Shown: positions 888 to 37,383 of the stretch, one piece after another
Layout: every line of letters starts with the position of its first letter
How positions within the stretch are numbered: position 1 is the first letter of the stretch
Virus record (IMG/VR): IMGVR_UViG_3300025087_000205
Location: 1-37,383 of that record
DNA length: 37,383 nt
Reading direction: 5' to 3' (one strand)
Source: a virus
Position numbers and translations under genes: made by a program
The notes under the pieces: model-generated
Seen by the model: only the letters and a program-made list of their open reading frames with translations
Databases searched by the model: none
Told to the model about the DNA's origin: nothing

Positions 888-903
888 GAAAGGACAATAA
901 ATA

Positions 904-1827: not shown

Positions 1828-1836
1828 TCAAACGTA

Positions 1837-1895: not shown

Positions 1896-1914
1896 AAGCA
1901 CAAGTGCAAGTGTG

Positions 1915-1959
1915 CAGTTGGACAGTCCTCCCTCAACGGAGTGCGGCATGTGCCAACTG
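1915..1959 (+). promoter_or_regulatory. Stem-loop ahead of the next virion gene
   Basis: CAGTTGG at 1915-1921 pairs with CCAACTG at 1953-1959; inside it CTCC at 1928-1931 can pair with GGAG at 1938-1941. The AAAGGAAAAG ribosome site for the next gene lies just 3' of the stem. Seen as base pairing only; function is unknown. Confidence 0.35.
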
Positions 1960-1980
1960 TGTAGAAAGGAAAAGTGAGAC

Positions 1981-2799: not shown

Positions 2800-2812
2800 C
2801 CACTTGAACAAT

Positions 2813-2846
2813 TGAGGGTGATTAACCTACAGGTTAGTCACCCTCA
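2813..2846 (+). terminator. Strong hairpin after 1981-2799 gene
   Basis: Arms 2813-2827 and 2832-2846 pair over 15 bp with one G-U and a 4-base loop (TACA). The hairpin starts 13 bases after the stop codon. It is strong enough to pause polymerase but lacks a U-tract, so it may act as a transcript 3'-end stabiliser rather than an efficient terminator. Confidence 0.5.
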
Positions 2847-2853
2847 CCTACAT

Positions 2854-2893
2854 ACGGGCATAACCGCGAGAGTCCCTCTCTCGTTCTCCCCGT
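2854..2893 (+). promoter_or_regulatory. Nested stem-loop in leader of 2913 gene
   Basis: ACGGG at 2854-2858 pairs with CCCGT at 2889-2893 and encloses CGAGAG (2867-2872) paired to CTCTCG (2878-2883). It ends about 20 bases before the start codon at 2913 and just before the GATTGGAG ribosome site. Possible translational control or mRNA stabilising element. Confidence 0.35.
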
Positions 2894-2912
2894 AGAGATT
2901 GGAGTAATAGTT

Positions 2913-3275
2913 ATGCGTACCTACGCTCAAGCCCCCAAAACCGTTTGGGACATTGATTACGCGACTGCGGCAGCGGCTAGTCTTCCTGCCGCTAGTTCTG
3001 TTCATAGCGGTTCTTTTGCCTCCATTGGATACTCTCGCCTGACCGGAGTTGTCTATTCGGATGCCTCCATGTCTGGTGTGTGTGGTATCAGAGTGCGGCA
3101 ATCCTCAACCTCTACCCCCAATTGGGATTACGAGTCCAACTTTGCGCTATCAGCGTGTAGCGGTTCTGCATTCAGCGTAGAGGTTATCGGTCGCTATGTG
3201 GACATCCAACTGTTCTCAGGTGCGACATGCGCGGCCTCTATCCTTCGTTCTTTCTGGGCATTGCGTCCTATCTAA
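2913..3275 (+). CDS. Hypothetical virion protein
   Basis: 120 residues, no recognised family. ATG is preceded by GGAG about 10 bases upstream. The protein is Ser/Ala-rich with several short hydrophobic strands and ends in RSFWALRPI; it has no membrane segment or enzymatic motif. It sits in the block between the capsid protein and a fibre-like protein and is preceded by two stem-loops, so it is likely a small virion or fibre-associated protein. Function cannot be assigned. Confidence 0.55.
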   Translation: MRTYAQAPKTVWDIDYATAAAASLPAASSVHSGSFASIGYSRLTGVVYSDASMSGVCGIRVRQSSTSTPNWDYESNFALSACSGSAFSVEVIGRYVDIQLFSGATCAASILRSFWALRPI

Positions 3276-3281
3276 GATAAT

Positions 3282-3485
3282 ATGATCAAAATTGCTAATA
3301 CACCAAATAAAGATGGCAATATCTTGCAGGCGTGGTTGCCCGATCATCCTCGCCTGAACGCAGATGGTATACCAGGGCGCGGGCCGTACTTTGGCAATTT
3401 GAACCTGGACACACTGGAGTTAGTATTGCTGGATGACGAGCTTGAGATAGAGAAAACAGTCAATACACAATTGACTACGGAGTAG
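3282..3485 (+). CDS. Hypothetical small protein
   Basis: 67 residues, starting 7 bases after the previous stop. It contains Pro/Gly/Asn-rich turns (PNKDGNILQAWLPDHP) and an acidic C-terminus (DDELEIEKTVN). The ribosome site is weak, so translational coupling is likely. It fits between two virion genes and may be a fibre or capsid accessory protein. Not recognised. Confidence 0.5.
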   Translation: MIKIANTPNKDGNILQAWLPDHPRLNADGIPGRGPYFGNLNLDTLELVLLDDELEIEKTVNTQLTTE

Positions 3486-3492
3486 ATCAATC

Positions 3493-4797: not shown

Positions 4798-5174
4798 TGA
4801 TCAAAATTAGGCTGTCTCAACTGGTCGATGCCTCTGCTGCTCTTTCACGCTTGGGGGCTCGGGAGCCAAAAGCCATAGTCGCCTTGCACATCAAGAAGGT
4901 GCTGCGCCTGTCGCAGATCGAACTCGCTGATTACGACGCGGTTCGCAAGCCGCTGCTGGCGAAGTACGGAATTCTCTCGGTGGACGGGACACATTATGAT
5001 TTCGAGACGCCGGAGAAGGCCGCGGCGCTCAACGCGGAAATGAGGCCGGTTCTCGATGCGGAAATTGAACTGGACGTGAAGCCACTCCTATTTGCGGAGA
5101 TTGAAGGCATGTCGATTAGCGGTAGCGACCTGCTGTTGCTTGATTGGTTGGTGGAGGAGCCGATAGACGGGTGA
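4797..5174 (+). CDS. DUF1617-like phage protein
   Basis: 125 residues from the ATG at 4797, which overlaps the TAA of the fibre gene by one base (TAATG), so translation is probably coupled. A longer version starting at 4758 would lie inside the fibre gene and is less likely. The order IKIRLSQLVDASAALSRL, a Lys/Leu helix, LLAKYGI, PEKAAALNAE and a closing hydrophobic segment resembles DUF1617-type small siphovirus proteins of unknown function, which often lie near fibre or tail genes. The family match is from memory of the pattern and is not certain. Confidence 0.65.
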   Translation: MIKIRLSQLVDASAALSRLGAREPKAIVALHIKKVLRLSQIELADYDAVRKPLLAKYGILSVDGTHYDFETPEKAAALNAEMRPVLDAEIELDVKPLLFAEIEGMSISGSDLLLLDWLVEEPIDG

Positions 5175-5190
5175 GGGAGATGATTCAATA

Positions 5191-5391
5191 ATGACAACTG
5201 TTCTCATCTGTCTTGCTGCGCGGCCGGTGTCGCAATCTGTCGCTGCCCGGACTGTGCTGCATCTCCGTGTGGCGGCTTATACCAACCGCCAGCCACATTC
5301 CGGGCAGGGATGGGAGATTGGTAGTAGAGTCGATCTGGTAAAGTGTGATGGGAGTTTGACGCCCATCGGTCAAATATACTCAGAATGGTAG
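5191..5391 (+). CDS. Hypothetical small protein (uncertain)
   Basis: 66 residues, not recognised. Only a distant GGGAG precedes the ATG. The protein has no membrane segment or motif. It would fill the gap between the DUF1617-like gene and the connector gene. Another frame over the same bases is Cys-rich but has no start codon. Coding status is uncertain. Confidence 0.35.
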   Translation: MTTVLICLAARPVSQSVAARTVLHLRVAAYTNRQPHSGQGWEIGSRVDLVKCDGSLTPIGQIYSEW

Positions 5392-5434
5392 TACCCATTG
5401 CTGGCGGAACGGGCTGTGGTGGCTAACTCGTTTG

Positions 5435-5443
5435 TGATATAAT
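5435..5443 (+). promoter_or_regulatory. Extended -10 promoter (TGATATAAT)
   Basis: TGATATAAT with no good -35 lies 16 bases before the ATG of the connector gene. Initiation about 7 bases downstream would leave a leader of only about 10 bases and remove most of the GGAG at 5445-5448. It is one of four TGnTATAAT boxes in the window. Confidence 0.5.
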
Positions 5444-5458
5444 TGGAGACACTCCACG

Positions 5459-5974
5459 ATGTCATATTCTTCCGCGTCTGACGTTGCCATTTTAACGCCT
5501 CACCTCCTCGGTACAGCGTCCGACTTCACTACCTCGACCTCCCCTACTCTTGCGGCTGTCAACTCGTGGCTGTCCTCAGGTTGTGCTGTTATCAATGGTA
5601 AACTCGCGGCACACGGCTACGGTGCGATACCCGCTGGTAATGCCGTCTATGGTATTGCGCAACAGGCTGAGGCAACCTATGGCGCGTGGTTTGCCGAACG
5701 CTCGCGCCTCTCTGCGCGTGTGGCGCGCGATGAAAACACCCGTGATACCGCGTTTCGCAAGGACTTCTTCGACTTGCTCAACCAACTTGTAAGTATAGAC
5801 CTGACAACGGTTGGCGTGTCGAGAACGAGTGCGCCACCAGCCACATACGCAGGAGGTGTGTCAATTGCGGATAAGGAAGCGAATGAGGGTGACTCGGACA
5901 TTGTACAAGGAAGATTCAGGCGAGGAATTTTTAGGAATACCGAGGCGTTGACGCCGAGTACAAGCGGGAGTTAG
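5459..5974 (+). CDS. Head-tail connector / adaptor protein
   Basis: 171 residues. The order of an N-terminal YSSASDVAILTPHLLG, a T-S-P-T-L-A-A-V-N-S-W-L helix, then a long helical centre ending in FRKDFFDLLNQL, matches gp6-like head-tail adaptor proteins that form the ring under the portal. A flexible Gly/Ser tail follows. It lies after the head genes and, apart from inserted HNH and glycosyltransferase genes, before a gp10-like and a tail terminator candidate, the usual neck gene order. Confidence 0.75.
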   Translation: MSYSSASDVAILTPHLLGTASDFTTSTSPTLAAVNSWLSSGCAVINGKLAAHGYGAIPAGNAVYGIAQQAEATYGAWFAERSRLSARVARDENTRDTAFRKDFFDLLNQLVSIDLTTVGVSRTSAPPATYAGGVSIADKEANEGDSDIVQGRFRRGIFRNTEALTPSTSGS

Positions 5975-5980
5975 GCTATA

Positions 5981-6505
5981 CTATTCTATCCATTGGTATC
6001 CTAGTAGGATGTTGCTTGCTTGAGATTTCTTGATACCGAATTTGTCTGCTAATTCTTGCTTGGTATATTTTCCAGTGGAAAACAGTTGTCGCATCTCTCT
6101 TACTTTTTCCCAAGTCATAATAGAACGACCATTGTTTTCACCAGTATTGTCCCTATCGAATATACCAAATACTTTCCCTAGTTCGTGACGTGCGTGAAGC
6201 GTGTTTCTTGAACGGGTAACACACTCAAGGTTAGATAAACGGTTATCAGACTTGATACCGTTCTTGTGATTTATCTCATAGTCATTTGGAATTTCTTGAC
6301 CAGAAGCCAGCCAGATAAATCTGTGTGCTAGAATAGAATGATTTCTGGCGGAAAGATTGCAGTATCCGTTACCTTGTTTAGAACGCATTTCTCTATGTTT
6401 ACCAGAGAGATATGAGAAGATTTTTCCAGTATCAAAGTCTATCTCAAACAAGCTATTATGATAGAGAGCGAGGAAGACTTGTTCACTTTCCCATCTGCGT
6501 TTCAT
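5981..6505 (-). CDS. HNH homing endonuclease
   Basis: 174 residues, the only leftward gene. The N-terminal half has a NUMOD4-like region, followed by an HNH core: ILAHRF near residues 58-63, EINHKNGIKSDNRLSNLE near 77-94. The C-terminal region (133-170) looks like a helix-turn-helix (LADKFGIKKSQASNIL) for DNA recognition. An upstream in-frame ATG at 6544 would lie inside the promoter, so the ATG at 6505, preceded by AGAAGGG, is chosen. The gene is AT-rich relative to its neighbours and is inserted between the connector gene and a frame-broken glycosyltransferase, as expected for a free-standing mobile endonuclease. Confidence 0.9.
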   Translation of the reverse strand: MKRRWESEQVFLALYHNSLFEIDFDTGKIFSYLSGKHREMRSKQGNGYCNLSARNHSILAHRFIWLASGQEIPNDYEINHKNGIKSDNRLSNLECVTRSRNTLHARHELGKVFGIFDRDNTGENNGRSIMTWEKVREMRQLFSTGKYTKQELADKFGIKKSQASNILLGYQWIE

Positions 6506-6526
6506 GGAGGAGTCCCTTCTCCACTC

Positions 6527-6555
6527 ATTATAAGACAGTTTCATTGGACTGTCAA
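6527..6555 (-). promoter_or_regulatory. Consensus sigma70 promoter of HNH gene
   Basis: On the minus strand TTGACA (6555-6550) and TATAAT (6532-6527) are separated by exactly 17 bases, a perfect consensus. The start would fall near 6520, giving a leader of about 15 bases that carries AGAAGGG before the ATG at 6505. Confidence 0.85.
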
Positions 6556-6576
6556 TATGAAGGGGGGTGATTTCTA

Positions 6577-6651
6577 ATGGCAGTTCCTACTCGTGGCACA
6601 CACATCACATATTTATATGCTGATAGCGACGCAGAATGGAACTGCTCTTGA
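6577..6651 (+). pseudogene. N-terminal glycosyltransferase fragment in another frame
   Basis: A short open frame with a strong AAGGGGGGTGAT site starts at ATG 6577 and ends at TGA 6649-6651 after 24 residues. Its end, ITYLYADSDAEWNCS, matches the usual first strand of GT4 glycosyltransferases of this kind, which normally continue directly into EWR..IPSDSLN. That continuation is present in the next gene in a different frame, so one gene appears split by a frame change near 6646-6650. Confidence 0.65.
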
Positions 6652-7901
6652 CTGAATGGCGAGCAAAAATACCCTCTGACAGTCTGAACGCCGAGCACGA
6701 GGCTGGTCGCACGCCTCACACGGCACAGTTGGTTTATCTTCCAACCGCGCTAGACTTCAACCACCCCAAGGTTCATCAGATACTTGGGAAGGCAGATGTG
6801 CTGGTATTCCAGCGTAACGCGCTTAGCCCCGATGTATGGGCCGCGATGGACTATTGGCGCACGCTTGGTAAAATTGTAACCTTGGACGCCGACGATCATT
6901 ATTATTGCCTGCCGCCCAGCAACCCGGCGTGGGCTTATTGGATTGCTAACAAGGGCAATATGCCAATGTATCCTCCTGACGCACTGATGGAGGGACTGAG
7001 GCATGTGGACGCTTTCACATCACCGAGCAAGGTGATGATCAAAGATGTAGAGCATATTGCTCCCGGCTTCTGGCTACCGAACTGGCCTCGGCGCATGTGG
7101 TATGAGAAGTGTGTGCCGAAGCCGTTAGGCTCGCCTGACATTGCGTTCTCGTACTCTGCCGATCCTCAAAACGCACAGCAGATGTTATTCAACGGGCAGT
7201 TTCGTGAGGGAAGTGAGGAGTGGATCGTACTCGGTTGGGGTGGTTCAATTAGCCATGTGGATAGTTGGGTGTACAGTGGGGCTATTGAGGCATTGGACGT
7301 GATGTTCGAGAAGTATCCCAACTTGCGCCTGAAGTTCTGCGGGTATGAGCAACGGTTGGACTATCTACTCAACCGATGGGGAGACAGAGTTATTCGACAG
7401 ATAGGCGTCAAGCCTGAGCATTGGCCATTCGTTGTGAGTACGTTTGACATTGGCCTTGCTCCTTTGGATATGCGCGTTGTTCCTAGCAACACGGGAAAAG
7501 AAGGCGAGACGATGTGGGAGGGTGGCACATACTCCTACGATGAACGACGCTCGTGGCTCAAGGGAATAGAGTATATGGCCGCTGGCGTTCCCTGGCTGGC
7601 GACTCGTAGCACAACGTATGAAGGCATTGCGCGACATGGTACAATGGTCGAGAACGCAATGGATGATCCGAAAGTGAGGACTGAGAATTGGACGAAAGCA
7701 CTAGACTCGGCGATACAGAACCTACCCGCACGCAAGATACTGGCGATGGAAAAGAAGAAGTGGGCATTACGCAAAATGTGCATGGAGGCGAGGGTGAACG
7801 AGTACGTCGAGACCTACGAGAGGATCGGCAACCTCAAGCAGACGAGACGCGGAACACTGCCGGGGGTGTTCTGGCACAAGCCGGTAGTGGCGACAGCATA
7901 A
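6636..7901 (+). CDS. GT4-type glycosyltransferase (N-terminus frame-broken)
   Basis: 421 residues as an open frame. GT-B glycosyltransferase features: early strand LVYLPTALDF, ADVLVFQRNA, a nucleotide-sugar region with LGWGGSISHVDSW, LRLKFCGYEQR, then FDIGLAPLD and YMAAGVPWLA (the EX7E-like C-terminal region). It probably glycosylates virion proteins or DNA, or modifies host surface sugars. The natural start is likely ATG 6577 in another frame (see the separate entry); the ATG at 6636 has no ribosome site. It is followed by a second glycosyltransferase and lies inside the head-tail connector block, which hints at virion glycosylation. Whether a functional product is made is unknown. Confidence 0.8.
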   Translation: MELLLTEWRAKIPSDSLNAEHEAGRTPHTAQLVYLPTALDFNHPKVHQILGKADVLVFQRNALSPDVWAAMDYWRTLGKIVTLDADDHYYCLPPSNPAWAYWIANKGNMPMYPPDALMEGLRHVDAFTSPSKVMIKDVEHIAPGFWLPNWPRRMWYEKCVPKPLGSPDIAFSYSADPQNAQQMLFNGQFREGSEEWIVLGWGGSISHVDSWVYSGAIEALDVMFEKYPNLRLKFCGYEQRLDYLLNRWGDRVIRQIGVKPEHWPFVVSTFDIGLAPLDMRVVPSNTGKEGETMWEGGTYSYDERRSWLKGIEYMAAGVPWLATRSTTYEGIARHGTMVENAMDDPKVRTENWTKALDSAIQNLPARKILAMEKKKWALRKMCMEARVNEYVETYERIGNLKQTRRGTLPGVFWHKPVVATA

Positions 7902-7942
7902 CTGATCCCGCCTCGTACATTGCGCGTAACTGGTATCGTGGG

Positions 7943-8050
7943 ATGAAACTTGAGTACAGCGGGGTAGACTTCGGCAAGTGCATGGAATACGATGTGCTAC
8001 AGGTTGTCAACCGAACAGTGGTGAAACAGAAGAATGAGCGAGAACAATAG
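7943..8050 (+). CDS. Small ORF or displaced C-terminus of the glycosyltransferase
   Basis: From about 7887 to 8050 a frame different from the upstream glycosyltransferase reads like protein (ITDPASYIARNWYRGMKLEY, then GKCMEYDVLQVVNRTVV). The first ATG in it is at 7943, which would give 35 residues. The text resembles C-terminal tails found at the end of phage glycosyltransferases. It may therefore be a separate mini-gene or a C-terminal part lost by a second frame change. It overlaps the next gene by 17 bases. Confidence 0.35.
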   Translation: MKLEYSGVDFGKCMEYDVLQVVNRTVVKQKNEREQ

Positions 8051-9275
8051 CCAACGTCCCACCCTGCTTATGCTCGGTGGTCACACCCTACAACCGTTGT
8101 GGCAACCGCTAAGTGATACCTACGATATTTGTATGGTACACCCTCAGTCATCGGCGCTGATGACCGAGATGGGTATACAAGGTGCGTTTGGCATACAGAA
8201 GTATCTCAACGCTGAGATACAAGAGGAAGCAACGAACATCGCCTATCGCATTGCGACAAAGGTACACCAACAGTCGGCTTCATTAGTGTCAGTTATACAC
8301 GAAGCCTTTGGCGAGAGCGTACCCGACAATTTTGCGCCAGACAAAGTGGCCGACTGGTTTCCCGCGATGGTTGGCGAGCACGTGCGACAAGAGGCATTGA
8401 TTCTCAACATGCTTGATGCGCTGAAGAACGATAGGCATATATCTGGTTGTGTGGTGCATGAGGATGTGACACCTGATGCGCGAGCGGTTGTGCTCTGGTG
8501 CAAGGTAAAAGGTATTCCAACAGTGCATGTGCCACATGCCAATTGCTTTTACATCGGTGAGGAGTGGGATATACACACTGAGAGCATATCGGACTGCATT
8601 GCGGCAGCAGGTGAATACATGTATGAGTTCTATGTCAAGTGGGGATACCCATCTGAGCGAGTGCGGGTGTGCGGTCAGCCACAACTAGATTCATGGTATG
8701 GACTCAACCCTCCATCTCGCACCGAGTCTAGGCGAGTGCTAGGCATAGACGATGGCACATTCTTGCTGGTGTACGCAACCTCGTGGGGACAACTCACCTC
8801 CGCTAGAGGCGACTTTGACGCAGAGTATGAGAACTCATTGCGCGAGGTTATTGAAACAACCAAAGAACTAGGTGCAACACTGTGCATAAAGATGCACCCT
8901 AGCGAAATGCAGAACCAAGAGCAGGTTTACTTGGAGGCCATGAAAAACAATGGCGTGACGGGGTTTGTCACGCGCCAGTTCAATGAGTATGTGCTGAGGG
9001 CGGCAAACGCTCTTGTGGCACATGGGCCAAGCAACATTTGTGTTCAGGCCGCGATACTTGGCTTGCCAAGTTGTTATCTGCCAACGGAGGGGTTTGAGTT
9101 TCCGCGTCCCGGCCCAGTGATGAGCATGATGTCACTCACTCATGCTGTGCGTATATCCCAAATGCTGGACAAGGGTAAAACTTGGGATATATTCGTGCGA
9201 CAGATGAATGCCAGTCATGATGTTGGCAACGGTGCGGAACGTGTTGCAGAGTTTGTGCGAGAGGTATGCCAGTAA
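8034..9275 (+). CDS. GT-B glycosyltransferase, CDP-glycerol/capsule type
   Basis: 413 residues. The opening PTLLMLGGHTLQPLWQPL, a central segment KGIPTVHVPHANC, VRVCGQPQLDSW, LLVYATSW and a C-terminal VAHGPSNICVQAAILGLPS are laid out like GT-B enzymes of the CDP-glycerol glycerophosphotransferase, capsule synthesis and UDP-GlcNAc 2-epimerase superfamily. The Gly-Pro-Ser-Asn site near the end is the nucleotide-sugar phosphate contact in such enzymes. It follows another glycosyltransferase and overlaps the gp10-like gene. The substrate is unknown; modification of virion proteins is the simplest guess. Confidence 0.75.
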   Translation: MSENNSQRPTLLMLGGHTLQPLWQPLSDTYDICMVHPQSSALMTEMGIQGAFGIQKYLNAEIQEEATNIAYRIATKVHQQSASLVSVIHEAFGESVPDNFAPDKVADWFPAMVGEHVRQEALILNMLDALKNDRHISGCVVHEDVTPDARAVVLWCKVKGIPTVHVPHANCFYIGEEWDIHTESISDCIAAAGEYMYEFYVKWGYPSERVRVCGQPQLDSWYGLNPPSRTESRRVLGIDDGTFLLVYATSWGQLTSARGDFDAEYENSLREVIETTKELGATLCIKMHPSEMQNQEQVYLEAMKNNGVTGFVTRQFNEYVLRAANALVAHGPSNICVQAAILGLPSCYLPTEGFEFPRPGPVMSMMSLTHAVRISQMLDKGKTWDIFVRQMNASHDVGNGAERVAEFVREVCQ

Positions 9276-9808
9276 TGGTAAGGATCACAATTGACATCTC
9301 CGAGATCAAGGCTGTTATTGCCAATCTCGGTCGTGCGCCACAGTGGATGCCAAAGGAGATAGATCGTGTCTTTCCCATACTTGGCAAGAAGGTCAAAGAC
9401 ATCATGGCTGATCAACTTGGCAAGCGGAGTTGGAGTGGGAAACTGGCAGGGAGTGTGCAGGACAATTACGATGCAGGCACAAAGACATTGACTATCGGGC
9501 CAACTCGCAAGTGGAAGGACAAAGATGCTGGCATGGTTCATCAACTTGGCACAGGGCCGTATCCAAATACCAAGAAACCGCCTTGGCTACCGATCAAACA
9601 ATGGGCTGAGGATCGAGGACGCGATCCTCGAAAGACCTATGTGAAGATATGGTTAGCAGGCGTATCGCCTCATCCATTCCTTATGGAAACAATGAACCGT
9701 CCCGACTTTCAAGCCGCACTGGAAGATGCCGCACAGAAACTTGGTGTGAATATCGCGGCACAGGCAGTAGCGGGTGACAAAACATTGGGTGTAGGGATAA
9801 CAGAATGA
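9266..9808 (+). CDS. HK97 gp10-like neck/tail completion protein
   Basis: 180 residues from ATG 9266; a second ATG at 9275 in the same frame overlaps the previous TAA and is also possible. The N-terminal IDISEIKAVIANLG, a basic GKRSWSGKLAGSV and a central MVHQLGTGPYPN with PHPFLMETMNRP follow the pattern of HK97 gp10-like minor tail proteins that complete the neck. The next gene overlaps it by four bases, consistent with a neck operon. Confidence 0.8.
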   Translation: MPVMVRITIDISEIKAVIANLGRAPQWMPKEIDRVFPILGKKVKDIMADQLGKRSWSGKLAGSVQDNYDAGTKTLTIGPTRKWKDKDAGMVHQLGTGPYPNTKKPPWLPIKQWAEDRGRDPRKTYVKIWLAGVSPHPFLMETMNRPDFQAALEDAAQKLGVNIAAQAVAGDKTLGVGITE

Positions 9809-10254
9809 GTCTCGCCAGCACACGTGCCGGTTTCTACACACACATTACAAGTTGTGGGCCGTATCTCTCAAGCGAGATAAGCGCGTGTGACTACGGAATA
9901 ATCGAGCGCACCTCTGGTTGCGCTATCATCTTCACGCCAACCGGTGAACATGTCAATGAACCATTGACTCATTCTGGCACAGGTATCACCGTCTCGCACA
10001 TGACGACGTGGCATATCACGGGTGAGTTGTACATTCGCTTTACTGGTGACTCGCCTGCGTTTCTCTCCAAGGTGTGGGGAGGCATTGACGATATACAAAC
10101 GACGATCAACAAAGACGTATCTCTTGGCAACAGTGTAGACTTCGCCTATCTCAGTAGCATGAGTTACGATGTGAACCGAGGATATGAAATTGGTGGGTTT
10201 GACTACGGCGTGATAGGCTTTGTTGTTACCTGTCAGGACTTGATACCACAATAG
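9805..10254 (+). CDS. Tail terminator candidate
   Basis: 149 residues, starting with ATGA overlap to the gp10-like gene. It has mixed alpha/beta-looking sequence with short strands (YGIIERTSGCAIIF, GFVVTCQDLIPQ) and no membrane segment or enzyme motif. The position directly after a gp10-like protein and before the tail tube genes is where the tail terminator normally lies. Assignment is by position only. Confidence 0.6.
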   Translation: MSLASTRAGFYTHITSCGPYLSSEISACDYGIIERTSGCAIIFTPTGEHVNEPLTHSGTGITVSHMTTWHITGELYIRFTGDSPAFLSKVWGGIDDIQTTINKDVSLGNSVDFAYLSSMSYDVNRGYEIGGFDYGVIGFVVTCQDLIPQ

Positions 10255-10270
10255 GCAATAGGGTGAGGGT

Positions 10271-11128
10271 ATGGCTAAAGCAGATCGCACAACACTCAAG
10301 AGTTACTTTGAAACCGGCGACCGACCAACACAGGCTCAGTTCATTGATCTAATTGACTCGTCAATTGATATTATGATTGCTGGTCAGACGCCGTTACAGG
10401 CTACCGCCTCTCTTGCGGCTGGCACGGGAATTAGCCTTGCTCAAAGCGGTAGCACTATTACTGTTACCAGTACCGTTACATCGTTTGCCATTGCCGCCAG
10501 CGAACAGGCAGATCTAAGTTCTACCGCCTCCATTCAGGCGGGCGATGGAGTAGAATTAAGTCAGACAGGTAGTGTGATAAAGTTCACTGGTTTGTCCATT
10601 GCGGCCAGTGGTGCGGCCTCGCTCACCAAGTCAGCATGTTTTCAAGCAGGCGATGGGATCGCACTGGCACAAACGGGTAGCATTATCAAATTCACTGGCT
10701 TATCTATTGCCGCAAGCCTTTCCACATCGCTGACACAAACTGCTTGCTTTCAAGCGCCTACGGCTTGCGGGTTGACCATTTCCCAAAGTGGCAGTGTGAT
10801 CACACACGGTGTTGGTAATGACTATCGTATCAAAGCGTGGATCAACTTCGATGGACAATTGGGTACACCAACTGCACGCGCCAGTTTCAACGTAGACAGC
10901 ATTACCGATAATGGCACTGGTCAATATACGATCAACTTCATTACTCCCTTTGCCAATGCGAACTACGTAGCCGTTGGCACATGCGCCTCTCCCGAAGGCG
11001 GGGCTATTGTTGTTGCCTCAGTTGCGCTGCCAACAACCACCGCTTACCGTTTTGAGACACGCACTGTCGGCGCTGGCGCGCCAGTGGACAAGGCCTGGAT
11101 CAACATGATATTCATAGGCGATCAGTAA
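10271..11128 (+). CDS. Tail fibre / receptor-binding protein with repeats
   Basis: 285 residues. The N-terminal DRTTLKSYFETGDRPTQAQF is a common phage attachment domain. It is followed by three to four related modules (about residues 45-190) of the form AGDGIxLxQTGSxIKFTGLS with alternating IAAS and ACFQA segments. The C-terminal region (RIKAWINFDG, ARASFNVDSITDNGTG, YTINFITPFANANYVAVG) matches the widespread fibre-tip domain of phages. It probably forms a trimeric fibre whose tip contacts the host. It lies between neck and major tail protein genes. Confidence 0.8.
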   Translation: MAKADRTTLKSYFETGDRPTQAQFIDLIDSSIDIMIAGQTPLQATASLAAGTGISLAQSGSTITVTSTVTSFAIAASEQADLSSTASIQAGDGVELSQTGSVIKFTGLSIAASGAASLTKSACFQAGDGIALAQTGSIIKFTGLSIAASLSTSLTQTACFQAPTACGLTISQSGSVITHGVGNDYRIKAWINFDGQLGTPTARASFNVDSITDNGTGQYTINFITPFANANYVAVGTCASPEGGAIVVASVALPTTTAYRFETRTVGAGAPVDKAWINMIFIGDQ

Positions 11129-11130
11129 CC

Positions 11131-11162
11131 AAGCATTCAGTTCAAGCATTCAGTCTAAGCAT
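11131..11162 (+). repeat. Tandem 13-bp repeats upstream of tail promoter
   Basis: AAGCATTCAGT occurs at 11131-11141 and 11144-11154 and a third partial copy, AAGCAT, at 11157-11162, giving a 13-bp period. The array ends directly at the extended -10 box at 11162. A similar array lies before the promoter at 33541. It may bind an activator. Confidence 0.7.
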
Positions 11163-11170
11163 GGTATAAT
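11162..11170 (+). promoter_or_regulatory. Extended -10 promoter of the major tail gene
   Basis: TGGTATAAT with a weak -35 (TTCAAG near 11141). It lies about 90 bases before the major tail protein and is preceded by 13-bp tandem repeats. Transcription would begin near 11177, just ahead of two hairpins. Confidence 0.7.
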
Positions 11171-11180
11171 AGTACGAGCA

Positions 11181-11199
11181 TCCCGCACATCTGGCGGGA
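11181..11199 (+). promoter_or_regulatory. Leader hairpin of the major tail transcript
   Basis: TCCCGC at 11181-11186 pairs with GCGGGA at 11194-11199 around a 7-base loop, a few bases from the predicted transcript 5' end. A 5' hairpin commonly protects abundant phage mRNAs from decay; here it is followed by a terminator-like hairpin. Confidence 0.55.
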
Positions 11200-11216
11200 C
11201 AAGTAGCGGAAACGTA

Positions 11217-11247
11217 TGCGCCGACACAGTTTGGCGCATTTTGCTTT
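11217..11247 (+). terminator. Attenuator-like terminator before major tail gene
   Basis: TGCGCC (11217-11222) pairs with GGCGCA (11233-11238) followed directly by TTTTGCTTT, a weak intrinsic terminator. It lies between the promoter at 11162 and the AAGGAGG ribosome site of the major tail gene, so it would stop upstream readthrough or attenuate the local transcript. Confidence 0.6.
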
Positions 11248-11262
11248 AAGGAGGCACAACAA

Positions 11263-11682
11263 ATGACTCAAGTTCACGGACGCAATTTGGTTCTACAACT
11301 CTTCCCATCAGGTGCGGCTTCGCTGAATGTTTCGGGTGATATGAACAGCGCAAACCTCACTTGGTCACGCAACAACCCAGAAACAACCACATTTGGGAAG
11401 GATACTGTTCAGCGTATCGCCGGTCTACGTGACTACACGCTGGACTTTGCCGGTATCTGGAACAGCGGTAGCGTTGCGGTTGACGTTCTAGCAACCGAAA
11501 TAGCGGCCTCAACCAATACATTGTTTAGGCTTGCGCCAGCAAGTGTGGCGGGTAGTCCAATGTACACGGGTTGCGGACTGCTCTCGAACTGGAATGTCAC
11601 CGGGCCTGTTGGCGGGCCAATAGCGATGTCATTCACAGTGCAGTCTGGTGCGGGATCGCTCACGACAACCGGTGCTGTCTAA
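11263..11682 (+). CDS. Major tail tube protein
   Basis: 139 residues with a good ribosome site (AAGGAGG). Sequence is Ser/Thr/Gly-rich with beta strands: an N-terminal VHGRNLVLQLFPSG, WSRNNPETTTFGKD, a strand DYTLDFAGIWN and a C-terminal MSFTVQSGAGS, matching the short major tail proteins of siphoviruses. It forms the tube through which DNA passes. It has its own promoter region and is followed by the chaperone pair and tape measure, the canonical order. Confidence 0.85.
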   Translation: MTQVHGRNLVLQLFPSGAASLNVSGDMNSANLTWSRNNPETTTFGKDTVQRIAGLRDYTLDFAGIWNSGSVAVDVLATEIAASTNTLFRLAPASVAGSPMYTGCGLLSNWNVTGPVGGPIAMSFTVQSGAGSLTTTGAV

Positions 11683-11717
11683 ACGCACAATTTACGTCTC
11701 AATAAGGAGGTCAGCGC

Positions 11718-12026
11718 ATGGCTGACAACAAGAAAGTCCTCAACGGGGATGAAAACATTTGGGTTGTTTTCAAGCCTAGTGGCTATCCTTTTCGTCTATC
11801 GCGTCAGTTGAAAGAAGCGACACGCGAGAACGAGATACTTGATACTATCCTCCCGTACATTAGCGCGTGTAAATTGCCAAGGGTGGACGGCACACTGCTT
11901 GAGGCTGAAACACTCTCCAATAAAGAATTGCTAGACGAAGTGGATGAGCAGATCGTCGTAGCGATCATTCGCGCGTTCTACGAGTTTCGACAGGAGAGGA
12001 TGTACCAGCCTGTCTCCCCAAACTAA
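11718..12026 (+). CDS. Tail assembly chaperone, short form (gpG-like)
   Basis: 102 residues, good AAGGAGG site. It lies between the tail tube and tape measure genes, where lambda carries G and GT. It is acidic and helical. Its last codons CCA AAC TAA carry a CCCAAAC slippery heptamer (12017-12023), so a fraction of ribosomes should shift -1 into the following frame and make a longer fusion. Such proteins keep the tape measure protein soluble during tail assembly. The role is inferred from position and the frameshift site. Confidence 0.8.
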   Translation: MADNKKVLNGDENIWVVFKPSGYPFRLSRQLKEATRENEILDTILPYISACKLPRVDGTLLEAETLSNKELLDEVDEQIVVAIIRAFYEFRQERMYQPVSPN

Positions 12027-18737: not shown

Positions 18738-18856
18738 TCAAGAAGTTTACTGGTTCGCTCTGGTCGGGGTCGGGGTCGCGGTCGCGGTCGCGGTCGCGGT
18801 CGCGGTCGGGGTCGCGGTCGGGGTCGCGGTCGGGGTCGCGGTCGGGGTCGCAGTAA
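18734..18856 (+). CDS. Ser-Arg/Ser-Gly dipeptide repeat microprotein
   Basis: 40 residues, too short for routine gene finding. It starts with ATGA overlap to the previous stop. After MIKKFTGSLW the rest is 15 dipeptides Ser-Gly, Ser-Arg or Ser-Gln ending in TAA. The repeat is made from the hexamers TCGCGG and TCGGGG. Basic, disordered, resembling RS-type peptides that bind nucleic acid or are phosphorylated in other systems, but no function is known for this phage peptide. A start codon in the right place and the translational coupling favour a real gene. Length variation would keep the frame. Confidence 0.65.
   Translation: MIKKFTGSLWSGSGSRSRSRSRSRSGSRSGSRSGSRSGSQ
18763..18853 (+). repeat. 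Hexanucleotide G-rich tandem repeat
   Basis: About fourteen head-to-tail units of GGTCGC or GGTCGG. It codes the Ser-Arg/Ser-Gly tract; on the complementary strand it would encode Arg-Pro or Asp-Arg tracts, which are shadows. G runs and short period make it prone to slippage and secondary structure. Confidence 0.8.
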
Positions 18857-22949: not shown

Positions 22950-24140
22950 ATGGACAAAAACATTATCAAGAATCTAATCACGATCACAGGTGCGCGTGGC
23001 TTAGGAAAGACTCGTCTCGGTCTGACTTTCCTTCCCCCATCGCAAAGAAGCAAGATGGTCATCCTAGACGCGGAGCGGTCGTCCAATAACATCCTTGCTC
23101 GTCTGAAGAAACACGGCCATGCTGAGACTTTTGAGGGATATATTGATCTGGAGGATGTAGAAGAACGTTATGGCTTTCCAGATGAAGACAACATCCTTGA
23201 CAGAGTTGTAAAGGACAACTTGCCTTGGGCGAACGAGAAAGAGCGTGATGCCATGCTCTCGTACTATCGCTACATTCTCAAAACTCTGTCCGAGATACCT
23301 AAAGACAAGTACAAGTGCCTCGTTCTCGACACCGGCCAAAAGTTCGAGTACGGCATGAGGGCGTGGGTTGATTACAACATGGCGAAGTTCGGCTTATCAA
23401 AGGATTGGGCTAAGGCTGAGGCCAACCTTCTGCGTCCTTTGTACGAGAATGTTCTAAACGGCATTTGGGGACGCGGGATCGAAACCATTATTTTCACCTT
23501 CCATCTTCGCAACGTGTGGGATAAGCGGATTAAAGCACCTATCCCCAACAAGGTGCAGATGGCTGGCAACCCGACCGTTTTGTTTCAACGCAGTAGCCTA
23601 ATGCTTTGGCTTGTACCTGAGCCACTGAATACCAACGGTGAACCCGCTGGCTTGGTGATCAAAGAACGCATGGGCGAGTTTGATATTGATGTAGAGAATG
23701 ACAAGTACATTCAAAAGAGACTGTTGCCATATCGCATTCCGATCTGTGATTGGGAACATATCAATCAATATCTTGAAGTTGGATGTGACTTGACAAACCT
23801 TCAGACGAATGAGAAATGGAGTGATGACGAACGTGATATGGCCTCCGAGTTTCTAAGCAATATCCAAATGAAGATGATGATCAAAGACTTGGAAATTCAG
23901 GAGATGGAAAAGACACTGGCGTTGGTTGACGCCGGTATCGTTGGCAACAATGTCAGTTTTAGCGATAAGTCTGCAACAGACATGCAATTCTCGGAGAGTG
24001 GCGGTGTACCCAAAACACGCTCCGAGGCTATCGCTACATGGAAAGCCTCTGGCAAAAAATTACCCGACTTGCTCAAGCACATTGCCGGTCTGAGCGATGA
24101 TCAAATTACCGCACAATGGGAGACAATCAATGCCAAATAA
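22950..24140 (+). CDS. RecA-like AAA ATPase
   Basis: 396 residues from ATG 22950 with AGAGGAAA in front; the ATG at 22929 is judged too early. Walker A GARGLGKT at residues 14-21 and a Walker B-like KCLVLDTGQ around 121-129. Overall the layout is like AAA_24 ATPases of phages, implicated in DNA recombination, repair or replication. A charged C-terminal third ends with WKASGKKLPDLLKHIAGLS, a small helical domain. It may act together with the nuclease at 21254. Confidence 0.75.
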   Translation: MDKNIIKNLITITGARGLGKTRLGLTFLPPSQRSKMVILDAERSSNNILARLKKHGHAETFEGYIDLEDVEERYGFPDEDNILDRVVKDNLPWANEKERDAMLSYYRYILKTLSEIPKDKYKCLVLDTGQKFEYGMRAWVDYNMAKFGLSKDWAKAEANLLRPLYENVLNGIWGRGIETIIFTFHLRNVWDKRIKAPIPNKVQMAGNPTVLFQRSSLMLWLVPEPLNTNGEPAGLVIKERMGEFDIDVENDKYIQKRLLPYRIPICDWEHINQYLEVGCDLTNLQTNEKWSDDERDMASEFLSNIQMKMMIKDLEIQEMEKTLALVDAGIVGNNVSFSDKSATDMQFSESGGVPKTRSEAIATWKASGKKLPDLLKHIAGLSDDQITAQWETINAK

Positions 24141-24594
24141 AGGACGGAAGCAACCCCCTCTCTCCTCCATTCGGTCACGCAAGGCGTTTCTCCAAGCCTT
24201 GCACGATGACGGTGGGTGGGTGGACATTCTTACGCCGAAAGTGGAAACATATATCTCACGCGCGAACATCGTGAATGCGTTTCTCAAGATGGGTGCAATT
24301 GAAACGAAGCCCGGCAAGGGTAAGCAAGTCCTAGCGCGTATCACTATGTACGGTCGTGAACTTCTGGCTGGCAACTGGCTCACTTACACAAAGGCGAATA
24401 TGAGCCTCGGTATGCCACGCAAGTTGTATAGCGAGGCGTGCGAACTAGCAAAGGAGTTGGGCATGATCCACCGTGCCGGAACGCACGCCGGCGAGCGCGG
24501 TAGCGTTATTGCGTTGGTGCGTGCCATTGTAAATAGGCGTGATGCGTTCAAGCGATGGTATAAGAGTAACTATGCTGAGGAGTTGGGAGGATAA
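24130..24594 (+). CDS. Hypothetical helix-rich protein
   Basis: 154 residues from ATG 24130, overlapping the ATPase end by 11 bases, so coupled. Basic (pI high) with IRSRKAFLQALHDDGGWV, an Ala/Leu/Lys helix centre, and ERGSVIALVRAIVNRRDAF near the end; this might be a winged-helix DNA-binding fold. Not recognised. Confidence 0.5.
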   Translation: MPNKGRKQPPLSSIRSRKAFLQALHDDGGWVDILTPKVETYISRANIVNAFLKMGAIETKPGKGKQVLARITMYGRELLAGNWLTYTKANMSLGMPRKLYSEACELAKELGMIHRAGTHAGERGSVIALVRAIVNRRDAFKRWYKSNYAEELGG

Positions 24595-28582: not shown

Positions 28583-28602
28583 ATCGCTTCATGGAGTATC
28601 TA

Positions 28603-29703
28603 ATGAAATTCCATAAAGTATCCAACTTATTCCCAATGATGAGCAAGGATGAGTACGAAGCACTCAAAGCCGATATATCTGTCAATGGTCAGATAGAGCC
28701 GATCTGGATTTATCAGGATCAAATTATTGATGGGAGGAATAGATACAATGCCTGTAAGGAGTTAGGAGTAGAGCCGAAGTTCAAGACATGGAGTGGCAAG
28801 GGATCGCTGGTTGAGTTTGTTGTGTCGCTGAATTTGCATCGGCGACACTTGAGCAGTACGCAGAAGGCAACTATCGCAGTGGATATGTTGCCAATGTTGG
28901 GGGAAGAGACAAGAGAAAAACAGAAACTTAGTGAGGGTAGAGGAAAAAAGGTAGCCAATTCTTTGGCTACCTTATCTGACAAGGAGGCAAATAAGCAAGC
29001 ACACGAAAATACTGCTACAGAACAAGCTGCTAAACTAACAGGTACAAACCGCCAATATGTTTCCGATGCCAAGAAGATAGCCAAGAAGCGTCCCGATCTG
29101 TTCGAGAAAATGCGTTCTGGCGAAGCAACTATCTCCGAGGCTAAACGTGAGATCGTCAAATCTGAAAAGAAGCCTCCTCCAAAACTCTCTGGCCGATATT
29201 CAGTCCTCTACGCTGACCCTCCCTGGAAGTATGGCAATGCGGGCATTATCAACGATGACAACTACGGCCATGTCGAGCGTCATTATCCAAGCATGTCCAT
29301 CAAGGAACTATGTGCATTAGATATTAGGGGTGTTGTTGAGGACAATGCTGTGTTATTTCTTTGGGTTACATCACCCTTGTTGGAGGAGTGTTTCCCTGTT
29401 GTCAAAGCATGGGGTTTCAAGTATAAAACTTCGTTCGTGTGGGATAAGGTGAAGCACAATTTTGGTCACTATAATTCTGTTAGGCATGAGTTTTTGTTAG
29501 TATGTGTACGCGGAAGTTTTACACCGGAGAACAACAAGTTGTTCGATAGCGTGGTTCAAGTTGAAAGAACAAAAGAACACTCGGAGAAGCCGGAGGAATT
29601 CAGGAACATTATTGAAACACTGTATCCCTCTGCCAATAAGATAGAACTCTTTGCCCGGAAGAAGATAAAGGGCTGGAGTATATGGGGGAATGAAGATGTT
29701 TAA
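28603..29703 (+). CDS. ParB/MT-A70 DNA adenine methyltransferase
   Basis: 366 residues from ATG 28603, with GGAG 6 bases before; an in-frame ATG at 28591 is possible. The N-terminal part has a ParB/sulfiredoxin fold (VNGQIEPIWIYQDQIIDGRN, then NLHRRHLSSTQKA) and a helix-turn-helix TGTNRQYVSDAKKIA. The C-terminal part is an MT-A70 methyltransferase with motif IV DPPW at 205-208 and LFLWVTSPLLEEC. It likely puts m6A into DNA, protecting phage DNA or controlling gene expression. It overlaps a QVK-type nuclease gene. Confidence 0.9.
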   Translation: MKFHKVSNLFPMMSKDEYEALKADISVNGQIEPIWIYQDQIIDGRNRYNACKELGVEPKFKTWSGKGSLVEFVVSLNLHRRHLSSTQKATIAVDMLPMLGEETREKQKLSEGRGKKVANSLATLSDKEANKQAHENTATEQAAKLTGTNRQYVSDAKKIAKKRPDLFEKMRSGEATISEAKREIVKSEKKPPPKLSGRYSVLYADPPWKYGNAGIINDDNYGHVERHYPSMSIKELCALDIRGVVEDNAVLFLWVTSPLLEECFPVVKAWGFKYKTSFVWDKVKHNFGHYNSVRHEFLLVCVRGSFTPENNKLFDSVVQVERTKEHSEKPEEFRNIIETLYPSANKIELFARKKIKGWSIWGNEDV

Positions 29704-32131: not shown

Positions 32132-32380
32132 ATGACAAGTGACAAAGATGGCGAAATAATGTACGAGGTCGATCATAAAAGACTTGAAAAGGACTTTACC
32201 TATCACGCGCCTAATTCAGAACAGTCAGCCCGCTATAACGCAATACGTTCAGCGGCAAAACTCATGGGTGAACTTCTAATGAGTTCATGTCCTCTGAGTC
32301 GTGAATTGTCTGTGGCATTGACAAAATTGGATGAGACAGTGATGTTTGCCAATGCTGCAATTGCAAGAAACGAATCATAG
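32132..32380 (+). CDS. acb2: Acb2-like cyclic-nucleotide sponge (anti-CBASS)
   Basis: 82 residues, AAGGAG before ATG. Layout matches Acb2/Vs.4 (short phage proteins that sequester cyclic nucleotides made by CBASS and related defences): basic start, FTYHAPN (22-28), a helix RYNAIRSAAKLMGELL, a CP pair at 53-54, and a C-terminal helix with ALTKLDETVMFANAAIARN. The W/F-A-N-A-A-I-A-R ending is a hallmark of the family. It would bind signalling nucleotides in the cytoplasm and block abortive infection. The family match is by pattern; affinity and nucleotide are not predictable. Confidence 0.8.
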   Translation: MTSDKDGEIMYEVDHKRLEKDFTYHAPNSEQSARYNAIRSAAKLMGELLMSSCPLSRELSVALTKLDETVMFANAAIARNES

Positions 32381-35606: not shown

Positions 35607-35713
35607 TTGCGCTTTGTGTTGTGCTGTATGTAATTGGGATTTACAGCGCGCTTGTGTTTGTAGAAGTTGCTTGTACGAGGTCTTACCGAGGTTTTGGGAA
35701 ACGGGGGGTGTAG
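35588..35713 (+). CDS. Single-pass membrane microprotein
   Basis: 41 residues from ATG 35588, overlapping the zinc ribbon gene. One hydrophobic segment (ALVALCVVLYVIGIYSALVF) then a basic tail (TRSYRGFGKRGV). No obvious ribosome site, so expression is uncertain. Confidence 0.4.
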   Translation: MQAEALVALCVVLYVIGIYSALVFVEVACTRSYRGFGKRGV

Positions 35714-35742
35714 TTAAGTAAGCACGCTGAATAACGGCACGG

Positions 35743-35770
35743 TTGACAAAAACCCGCACGTCTATATAAT
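35743..35770 (+). promoter_or_regulatory. Sigma70 promoter of a gene-free region
   Basis: TTGACA (35743-35748), 16 bases, TATAAT (35765-35770). Start near 35777. No credible gene follows for almost 600 bases, so the product may be an RNA or a primer transcript. Confidence 0.75.
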
Positions 35771-35800
35771 ACGCAAGTCTCGATTCTCCTCCCTGCGACG

Positions 35801-35841
35801 ACAGCCGCCACTTCGTACTCCCTCTCCGATGTGGCGGCTGT
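35801..35841 (+). promoter_or_regulatory. Perfect 11-bp hairpin
   Basis: ACAGCCGCCAC (35801-35811) pairs with GTGGCGGCTGT (35831-35841) around a 19-base loop. It lies 25 bases after the predicted start and is followed by TCGCATTTAAG without a clear U-tract. Could be a terminator for a short RNA or a protein-binding structure. Confidence 0.6.
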
Positions 35842-35845
35842 TCGC

Positions 35846-35906
35846 ATTTAAGGGAACAAGCGAGATAGTTAAGAATACATTTAAGGGTACGGGCGATCAG
35901 TTAAGA
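35846..35906 (+). repeat. Two degenerate direct repeats (ATTTAAGGG..AGTTAAGA)
   Basis: Units at 35846-35874 and 35879-35906 share ATTTAAGGG, a central AC..GCGA and AGTTAAGA, in tandem with about 33-bp period. AT-rich; may be part of an origin or operator. Confidence 0.6.
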
Positions 35907-35940
35907 GGTCTTTTCACCCTTTCCCCTCTCGCGCCTCGGT

Positions 35941-36039
35941 GCGTGTAGCCAAGTGCGGATAGGCATACTTCGTCGTTTGCGTGTAGCCACATTTCCTATG
36001 TTTGCGTGTAGCCATAGTTTTTCGTTTTGCGTGTAGCCA
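35941..36039 (+). repeat. Four iteron-like repeats (GCGTGTAGCCA)
   Basis: GCGTGTAGCCA at 35941-35951, 35979-35989, 36004-36014 and 36029-36039. The last three are preceded by TTT or TTTT and lie 25 bp apart; the first is 38 bp away. Regular spacing fits iterons bound by a replication initiator or packaging protein. Spacers are only about 14 bp, which excludes CRISPR. Confidence 0.75.
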
Positions 36040-36062
36040 TTGTCACCGGCTGAACCTGCTCC

Positions 36063-36113
36063 GCCGACGATCCGCCACTGCCGATAACTTGCCGACGATC
36101 CGCCACTGCCGAT
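36063..36113 (+). repeat. Two 23-bp direct repeats
   Basis: GCCGACGATCCGCCACTG plus CCGAT occurs exactly at 36063-36085 and 36091-36113, a 28-bp period. GC-rich, directly after the iteron-like repeats. Confidence 0.75.
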
Positions 36114-36152
36114 CCCGACTCGCGTTTGTAATGTACAACGGTTAGCGTACTT

Positions 36153-36180
36153 CCCCGAAGCGCGAGGGGTAAACCTTTTT
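36153..36180 (+). terminator. Possible weak terminator
   Basis: CCCC (36153-36156) and GGGG (36166-36169) can pair with a 9-base loop and T5 follows at 36176-36180, separated by TAAACC. It could end a transcript from 35743 that would run through the repeats. Weak evidence. Confidence 0.3.
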
Positions 36181-36206
36181 CGTGTCATCAATTTGGCATT
36201 TGCCTA

Positions 36207-36235
36207 TTGACAAGCCGCGAGTTATCGGTTATATT
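36207..36235 (+). promoter_or_regulatory. Sigma70 promoter for rightward operon
   Basis: TTGACA (36207-36212), 17 bases, TATATT (36230-36235), same as at 18309. Start near 36242. A leader of about 120 bases includes AACCGGGG twice (36259-36266 and 36291-36298) and a hairpin CCCGGC/GCCGGG at 36327-36342. Confidence 0.75.
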
Positions 36236-36365
36236 GTTCTTACATCTGTCCTTCAAAGAACCGGGGCGTAAGTGGCGAGGCAATACGGTTAACCGGGGAA
36301 TGCTAATGTCAGCAGATGCAAAGCGACCCGGCGCACGCCGGGACATAGCCGACAGGAGAAAAACC

Positions 36366-36572
36366 ATGACATGCTCGGACTGTGGACAAACAATTAGCAA
36401 ACATGCAGATAACACATTCGCGTGCTCATGTGAATTTGCATCCCCGGCAGCGGGGGATGACTTTCCCCTCTGCTGGATAGCAGAGGACGAATGGGGGAAT
36501 ACTCTGGAGGGAAAGTACAACTCCCTGCGGCAGATGTACGACGCGGGAGAGTTTGTACCGGATTTTCCATGA
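36366..36572 (+). CDS. Small zinc-binding protein
   Basis: 68 residues from ATG 36366 with GGAGA in front; an earlier in-frame ATG at 36306 is possible. MTCSDCGQTISKHADNTFAC then SCEF gives a C-x2-C with a later C-x-C and a helical C-terminus (LEGKYNSLRQMYDAGEF). Function unknown. First gene of an operon controlled by the promoter at 36207; the next gene overlaps by four bases. Confidence 0.6.
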   Translation: MTCSDCGQTISKHADNTFACSCEFASPAAGDDFPLCWIAEDEWGNTLEGKYNSLRQMYDAGEFVPDFP

Positions 36573-36769
36573 CCAAATGCGCCAACTGCGCTCGCGCCCT
36601 GCCCCTGCCGCCGGCCCGCTGGGATCGGCAGTGCTTGGCAACGTATCGAACATTGCTGAAGCGCGCATTGAGGCGGGCAACGCGACTCGTTGACAATGAC
36701 ACGTCAACCGCCGAATCAGTGCTCCTCGCATGGGCAGAGTGGGCATTGTTTCAGGAGGTGGGCAAATGA
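36569..36769 (+). CDS. Hypothetical small protein
   Basis: 66 residues from ATG 36569 (ATGA overlap). Starts MTKCANCARALPLPPARWDR with a C-x2-C pair and continues as a Leu/Ala/Arg-rich helix. Probably DNA- or metal-binding; not recognised. Overlaps the next gene by four bases (ATGA). Confidence 0.55.
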   Translation: MTKCANCARALPLPPARWDRQCLATYRTLLKRALRRATRLVDNDTSTAESVLLAWAEWALFQEVGK

Positions 36770-37071
36770 TAACCCCCACAATAGCCGAGATCAAACAGGC
36801 CACGCTAGACAAGTCGCCCCACTTCTTCGACCGTGCTACTCTCAAGTTCTTCGGTCAAACGATGCGCGCCTTCAAAGTGAAACGATCCCCCGGCGGGCGA
36901 GTGTTCATCTTTGCGCCGAACTATGACAGGAGTGGAGAACGGGATCGGTTCATGGGCTATACCCTCCGCGAATTCATCGGAGGTGATCTGATCGTGCCAC
37001 ATGATGAGGACGGCACAATCCCGCTTCACAGTACATTAGCCGAGGTTCTAGGCTACATTTCGACACACTGA
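36766..37071 (+). CDS. Conserved hypothetical phage protein
   Basis: 101 residues from ATG 36766, AGGAGGTG in front. The phrase TIAEIKQATLDKSPHFFDRA, then KFFGQTMRAFKVKRSPGGRV and a late GYTLREFIGGDL, recurs in many phages. Function is unknown. Position in an early operon suggests an accessory role. Confidence 0.6.
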   Translation: MITPTIAEIKQATLDKSPHFFDRATLKFFGQTMRAFKVKRSPGGRVFIFAPNYDRSGERDRFMGYTLREFIGGDLIVPHDEDGTIPLHSTLAEVLGYISTH

Positions 37072-37085
37072 GAGGAGAGAGGGAT

Positions 37086-37383
37086 ATGAGTAACTATGTG
37101 GATCGTAACGAAACAATCAAGGCCATCCGGGACGCGCTGAAACACCGATCCGGGAAATCTTGGAGTGTGACGGGCGGCAGTGGCACGGCTTACGGCTGGA
37201 TCACGATTGACGCACCGCTAGCCCGCCGAACATGGGGCTGGCGGCTCAAAGTCGGGGAGTTTGTTGACCTGCCGGAGAATTACGAGGAGTACGACAGCGG
37301 GCAACCCAATCACCACACCAGCCCCGCCGAACGCACCGAACTCGCCAACCTGCTGGGCCTCGACCGCCCAGTACATCTCCAGG
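37086..37383 (+). CDS. Hypothetical protein (3' end outside window)
   Basis: At least 99 residues; cut by the right edge. GAGAGGAGAGAGGGAT precedes the ATG. The segment ALKHRSGKSWSVTGGSGTAY followed by GWITIDAPLARRTW is typical of small phage proteins of unknown function. GC-rich compared with the left part of the window. Confidence 0.65.
   Translation, partial: MSNYVDRNETIKAIRDALKHRSGKSWSVTGGSGTAYGWITIDAPLARRTWGWRLKVGEFVDLPENYEEYDSGQPNHHTSPAERTELANLLGLDRPVHLQ

Follow-up and report, generated by a model that had tools for sequence, protein, structure and literature searches.

Introduction

Repressors of the cluster A mycobacteriophages act at asymmetric sites that are co-oriented with transcription, and the stoperators of phages such as L5 and TipsytheTRex are short, most variable in their middle bases, and located at promoters and in intergenic gaps, with 20–30 sites distributed genome-wide and a known repressor (PMC9283540, PMC6550527). 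A study of phages 7-11 and Xp10 (PMC4331800) describes control elements that are conserved intergenic repeats within one phage, revealed by self-comparison, with the repeats being the promoters themselves. Phages are already well known to carry control-site arrays between their genes. Direct repeats clustered next to a promoter are also found at iteron-type origins, such as those with the lambda O sites and the P1 RepA iterons. Both RNA-based and RepA-based prophage origins exist (PMC7157519).

The locus described here has short asymmetric sites with variable middle bases that are co-oriented and intergenic, as in cluster A, and in its presumed working the module appears most like the cluster A operator/stoperator sites. 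Cluster A genomes have a known repressor and 20–30 scattered sites, whereas the present phage has 13 co-oriented sites, of which two clusters account for 11, and neither a repressor nor an integrase was recognised in the four records scanned. We do not claim the module as a member of the cluster A stoperators, because the number and spread of its sites differ and no repressor was found. As in phages 7-11 and Xp10, the elements are intergenic repeats conserved within a single phage, but they lie upstream of ordinary sigma-70-like promoters. A direct-repeat array beside a promoter is shared with iteron-type origins, from which the locus differs in that no initiator gene was recognised among the proteins scanned, no DnaA box was found, and no unwinding zone is marked in 100-bp windows, and also in that the module is present twice and further boxes occur singly. 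The literature searched gave no description of this motif or of its duplication, and a text search for the letters of the box gave, among the matches listed, papers that are unrelated by title and abstract.

A phage genome on two adjoining contigs

The window, which is the whole stretch of DNA analysed, is the 37,383 bp virus record IMGVR_UViG_3300025087_000205, and nearly all of its main ORFs are on the + strand. It is one end of the genome of a tailed phage, an uncultivated bacterial virus. A two-box pattern search led to a second contig, IMGVR_UViG_3300025087_000233 (G001; 32,383 bp), the reverse complement of which (G001rc) provides the numbering for region A below. The end of G001rc is identical to window 7–132 (126 bp), and a third contig (L008, IMGVR_UViG_3300025117_000241), found through the capsid protein, lies across the join, with 6,166 bases at its start corresponding to the end of G001 at 100% identity and 11,818 bases corresponding to window 7–11824 with one mismatch. 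Because L008 matches both, G001 and the window adjoin; judging from these overlaps, they are neighbours in a single phage population genome, which measures 69,634 bp (69.6 kb) or more. The remaining contig ends are unjoined, and the last 25 bases of the window are absent from the other loci compared.

The window encodes the major capsid protein (904–1827, phrog_1005), a helicase (26415), a ParB-like/MT-A70 fusion (28591–29703), a holin (33614), and a metallophosphoesterase (gene end, 35490), with the portal and large terminase encoded on G001. ParA (PF13614) and the tyrosine and serine recombinase families are present in none of the four records, and HTH_3 gives no match above the cut-off in any of the four, with one sub-threshold match in an HNH gene. 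Either the phage has a strictly lytic life style, or lifestyle genes (ParA, recombinase, repressor) may be in the part of the genome that the contigs do not cover. No tRNA genes were found, and Rfam has no known-RNA match in the window or G001. Comparison of regions B and A with 50,697 phage records by blastn yielded no match, and no relatives were identified in viral_contigs through the neighbouring phosphoesterase or the protein of the last gene. A distant relative by capsid (G004) has a single TGCGGATAGCCA. The host might be a member of the Chloroflexota, a guess based on P/T-rich linkers, which we take to be a habit of that phylum.

Organisation of the intergenic region

Region B (window 35714–36365) is free of genes, as proposed in the original prediction, and all of the elements listed there exist, together with an additional variant box at 35954; all features described in this section are on the + strand. 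At the left, a first AGTTAAG heptamer (35712–35718) sits just before the element CGCACGTCTAT-A-TAATACGCA (35755–35775), which overlaps P1, a sigma-70-type promoter-like sequence (TTGACA-16-TATAAT, 35743–35770) with a 12/12 match. These are followed by a strong, terminator-like hairpin with an imperfect T tail (35801–35841; fold z -5.4), containing 11 perfect pairs (35801–35811 with 35831–35841, 19 nt between; extended 15-nt arms, 93%). Terminator scans did not class this hairpin as a terminator, nor its counterpart in region A. To its right are two AT-rich direct repeats (35845–35863 and 35878–35896), 33 bp apart and 84% alike, each of which contains TTTAAGGG and is followed by a further AGTTAAG (35867–35873 and 35899–35905). 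A pyrimidine tract seen by eye between the hairpin and the boxes (34 of 40) does not stand out.

The boxes themselves are four exact copies of the 12-mer TGCGTGTAGCCA, at 35940–35951, 35978–35989, 36003–36014, and 36028–36039, with spacings of 38, 25, and 25, the last three constituting the 25-bp period; the variant box TGCGGATAGGCA is at 35954–35965. Two exact 23-bp GC-rich direct repeats are positioned at 36063–36085 and 36091–36113, ahead of a second promoter-like sequence, P2 (TTGACA-17-TATATT, 36207–36235, 11/12). The promoter had been thought to lead to no gene, and this is incorrect; a gene for a 68-residue protein of no family (36366–36572, ATG at 36366) begins 131 bases past P2, preceded by a leader hairpin (AGCGACCCGGCGCACGCCGGGA, 36322–36343) and a ribosome-binding site (AGGAG, 36354–36358), and short ORFs follow. 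A later gene of this block (36766–37071) encodes 101 residues with a weak match to DUF7447 that is below the curated cut-off.

The repeats of region B are real, and chance falls well short of explaining them. When its 652 bases were dinucleotide-shuffled 1000 times, no 12-mer was present more than twice (four copies observed), the longest exact repeat was 13 at most (23 observed), and a 12/12 promoter appeared in none. The shuffle test used a loop limit of 15, which places the 11-pair hairpin with its 19-nt gap outside of it, and the significance of the hairpin is given by its fold z of -5.4.

A second, diverged copy of the module

A region on the adjoining contig, region A (G001rc 2257–2836), aligns colinearly with window 35755–36368 of region B. 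Among the shared blocks are stretches of 22, 21, and 21 nt without any difference, and the block order is the same in both copies: CGCACGTCTAT(A)TAATACGCA (G001rc 2257–2276 in A), hairpin, AGTTAAG repeats, boxes, sigma-70-type promoter, and leader hairpin. The hairpins occupy equal places but differ in sequence (z -6.1 in A, -5.4 in B), and the last three TGCGTGTAGCCA boxes are exactly 25 and 25 bp apart in A as in B. The promoter of copy A (TTGACT-18-TATAAT, 11/12) corresponds to P2 in block order, with the two being in different columns of the alignment. The 22-nt leader AGCGACCCGGCGCACGCCGGGA, with a 6-bp stem and a GCAC loop, is located directly before the ribosome-binding site and is the same in both copies. 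Taken whole, the two leaders are no more stable than shuffles (z -0.25 and -0.66).

The stretches that separate the blocks have diverged, and two components are particular to B, namely the 23-bp repeats and P1 as a 12/12 promoter, the promoter match of which is not conserved in A. That the blocks are kept while the spacers are lost suggests that the blocks are what matters. Each copy precedes short ORFs with ribosome-binding sites. G001 is the sole match in viral_contigs both for the AGCGACCCGGCGCACGCCGGGA leader and for CGCACGTCTAT(A)TAATACGCA, in scans that may omit the window's own record.

Distribution of the boxes

The box has the 12 bp consensus TGCG(NR)TAG(S)CA, and the pattern TGCGNRTAGSC is found 14 times in the joined 69.6 kb, compared with a mean of 0.33 and a maximum of 2 in 60 shuffles. 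Thirteen of the 14 are on the + strand, along the direction of transcription, and lie in four intergenic gaps: six in A, five in B, and one each at G001rc 4314 and 5566. By reading, the box at 4314 is within a hairpin ahead of the ribosome-binding site of a gene, and the one at 5566 is intergenic and is followed about 70 bp downstream by a 10/12 promoter. The remaining box, on the - strand, is within the LysM gene. AGTTAAG is present five times in the 69.6 kb, always on the + strand and only in A (two) and B (three); given a shuffle mean of 6.0 per genome, the number is ordinary and the placement is not.

A candidate control region for early genes

The colinear duplication of the module, with each copy heading a block of small genes, and the recurrence of co-oriented boxes upstream of other genes support the control-site part of the original prediction. 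We consider it about an even call that region B is a control region heading an early operon of small genes, with the boxes as candidate sites for a phage or host protein. The DNA itself shows what the parts are, how they are ordered, duplicated, and co-oriented, and how rare they are elsewhere; that the boxes are bound by a protein and act on transcription is what we infer from these, and the genes are presumed to be early from their position and size alone.

A plausible sequence of events is that the hairpin would shut off the upstream transcript, and that the phage or host protein would bind the boxes located behind the AGTTAAG repeats, each box being 12 bp long and asymmetric, with TGCG and TAGCCA as its two parts and two variable bases between them. 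The bound protein could then set the activity of the sigma-70-type promoter P2, about 170 bp downstream, and the 6-bp hairpin of the transcript, before the ribosome-binding site, may tune the translation or stability of the first gene. Copy A would control another early operon of the same phage in a similar manner, and single boxes may serve two further genes of that region, which they precede.

Two aspects of the geometry count against a control region. The boxes end about 145–185 bp upstream of P2, which is far for a simple operator, and the 25-bp period corresponds to 2.4 helical turns, so that neighbouring boxes are not on one face of the helix. Also unfavourable are the unremarkable stability of the two whole leaders and the failure of the terminator scans to class either hairpin as a terminator. 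No regulator was found in the four records using HTH_3 and recombinase profiles. One candidate binder (24097–24594) was dropped, its model being too poor (mean pLDDT 51) and its sequence having no PDB relative.

This phage has never been grown, and its early control is perhaps a reusable cassette, consisting of an insulator-like hairpin, a box array, a promoter, and a leader, and heading two operons. Divergence between the copies provides an internal evolutionary comparison that marks the important bases, and the binding protein can therefore be sought with a defined bait.

Replication, packaging, and partition

The locus had been proposed as a replication origin with a priming transcript, in which case the boxes would be iterons for a phage or host initiator and P1 would provide activating or priming transcription; the two copies would then both be origins, or else one would be an origin and the other a control copy. 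Consistent with this are the direct repeats, which form clusters and in both A and B include three copies at a 25-bp period, the promoter beside them, and the 50-bp windows of B, which rank within the least stable 2.7% of the genome (4.9% for A). With 100-bp windows no marked zone of low stability is seen, B and A being at the 13th and 21st percentiles. A search of A, B, and C for the DnaA box (TTATCCACA), allowing one mismatch, gave no match, and no initiator was recognised among the 97 proteins scanned, in tallies giving the first 25 of 45 and the first 25 of 79 families. That P1 is not conserved in A also argues against an origin, and single boxes ahead of other genes are unusual for an origin.

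The skew analysis that had been suggested as a check gave a positive GC skew nearly throughout the 69.6 kb, without a lasting change of sign, which is one of the outcomes that had been named beforehand as refuting the proposal. A single skew result favours an origin at B or A: the third-position skew is -0.113 for the eight small genes between B and A (window 36366–37382 and G001rc 72–2233), as against +0.087 for eight genes upstream of B (window 19–35 kb). This value may be a consequence of the genes being few and short. The skew returns to +0.066 for the seven genes behind A, and two genes further along G001rc have -0.06, so that negative values are not confined to the block between B and A. 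The combined skew, stability, DnaA-box, and initiator results lower the probability of an origin, which we regard as the main alternative explanation of the boxes, though a rather unlikely one. The check for repeats in relatives had a positive outcome, as the repeats recur in the same genome and in an unrelated phage (G002).

A packaging (cos/pac) site had been offered as well, and region B is indeed only about 1 kb from a contig end. Similar boxes are also present about 280 bp upstream of TerS-like and terminase-like genes (named by reading translations) in another stretch, L023, but these differ from ours and were found with a loose pattern, so may be chance matches. In this phage about 22.6 kb separate the large terminase gene from A, and 26 kb or more separate it from B; the genome also has the module twice, and a packaging site is thus very unlikely. 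Least probable, to the point of being scarcely credible, is a partition centromere (parS) of a plasmid-like prophage. Two direct-repeat arrays in one genome and the ParB-like/MT-A70 fusion at 28591–29703 would accord with it, but the ParA family missing from the four records was detected in all 14 control genomes.

Boxes in other phages and in chromosomes

Pairs matching TGCGKRTAGCCA are found in two stretches of viral_contigs, G001 and G002. In G002, which ends just past its pair, TGCGTGTAGCCA occurs twice, exact, at a distance of 33 bp, and CCCGCACGTCTAT precedes the pair by about 380 bp on that strand. This phage has one convincing protein in common with ours, which is methyltransferase-like (blastp; 68 ORF pairs passed E 0.1). 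If the boxes were sites of a bacterial host regulator, their exact presence twice in an unrelated phage would be explained. Against this, the 13-mer CCCGCACGTCTAT of G002 is within a possible 55-residue gene and may be there by chance, and exact box pairs are also found in unrelated chromosomal tandem arrays; docking of a host protein is a doubtful proposition. A chromosomal source of the box was rejected, as the two genome_contigs matches are tandem arrays of Prevotellaceae and Stenotrophomonas and not phage modules. In the Prevotellaceae locus (L006 3440–3600) a 22-bp tandem array with GCGTGTAGCCA adjoins a long hairpin with GCACGTCTAT, between convergent genes, and the likeness is probably a coincidence.

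A loose three-box pattern is matched by 23 stretches including G001, and most of these are, by reading, repeats within ORFs; the non-coding ones are L023 and L033 (one sequence) and L028. Of these, L023/L033 enters only the control-code idea below and, weakly, the case for packaging. Six copies of TGCGYATAGSCA are present in G005/G007 in a gene-free segment upstream of TerS-like and terminase-like genes, again with a loose pattern that may be matched by chance. The exact box in G002, together with the variant present six times in G005/G007, raises the idea that TGCG-NR-TAG-SCA with an upstream CGCACGTCTAT is a control code common to unrelated phages of one uncultivated host group. The reader would be an undescribed host protein or a widely exchanged phage protein, and modular copies would start early operons or replication; we think this quite unlikely.

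A palindromic 17-mer, TTTAGGCAAGCCTAAAT, is common to L003, where it is on the reverse strand and 46 bp ahead of the boxes, and the L023 intergenic region, in phages that are otherwise different. It has no match in A or B, and resembles a palindromic operator of a metal regulator.

Other features of the genome

Among the LysM and holin genes, window 32132–32380 encodes an 82-residue protein that matches PF24729, the Acb2/Tad1 hairpin domain (E 7.6e-17), a family of anti-CBASS/anti-Thoeris sponges. Sugar-type genes (NeuB, a TPP enzyme, a polysaccharide synthase/epimerase, a cytidylyltransferase, and an ATP-grasp protein) are located at L004 9075–15925 and L005 599–7710, with an RNA ligase (PF09414) among them; the cluster is perhaps for surface-glycan or virion modification. 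A segment of about 1.35 kb (L005 8764–10114, G001rc 6270–7620) has two ORFs of 40–48 codons with a good ribosome-binding site and no Rfam match, and is a possible large non-coding RNA. An HNH endonuclease gene (window 5981–6544, - strand), the start of which is overlapped by a 12/12 promoter-like site (6527–6555), is probably a mobile homing gene. Following the tail-type genes, a tandem array of the six-base unit GGTCGC extends for 15 copies (window 18762–18851).
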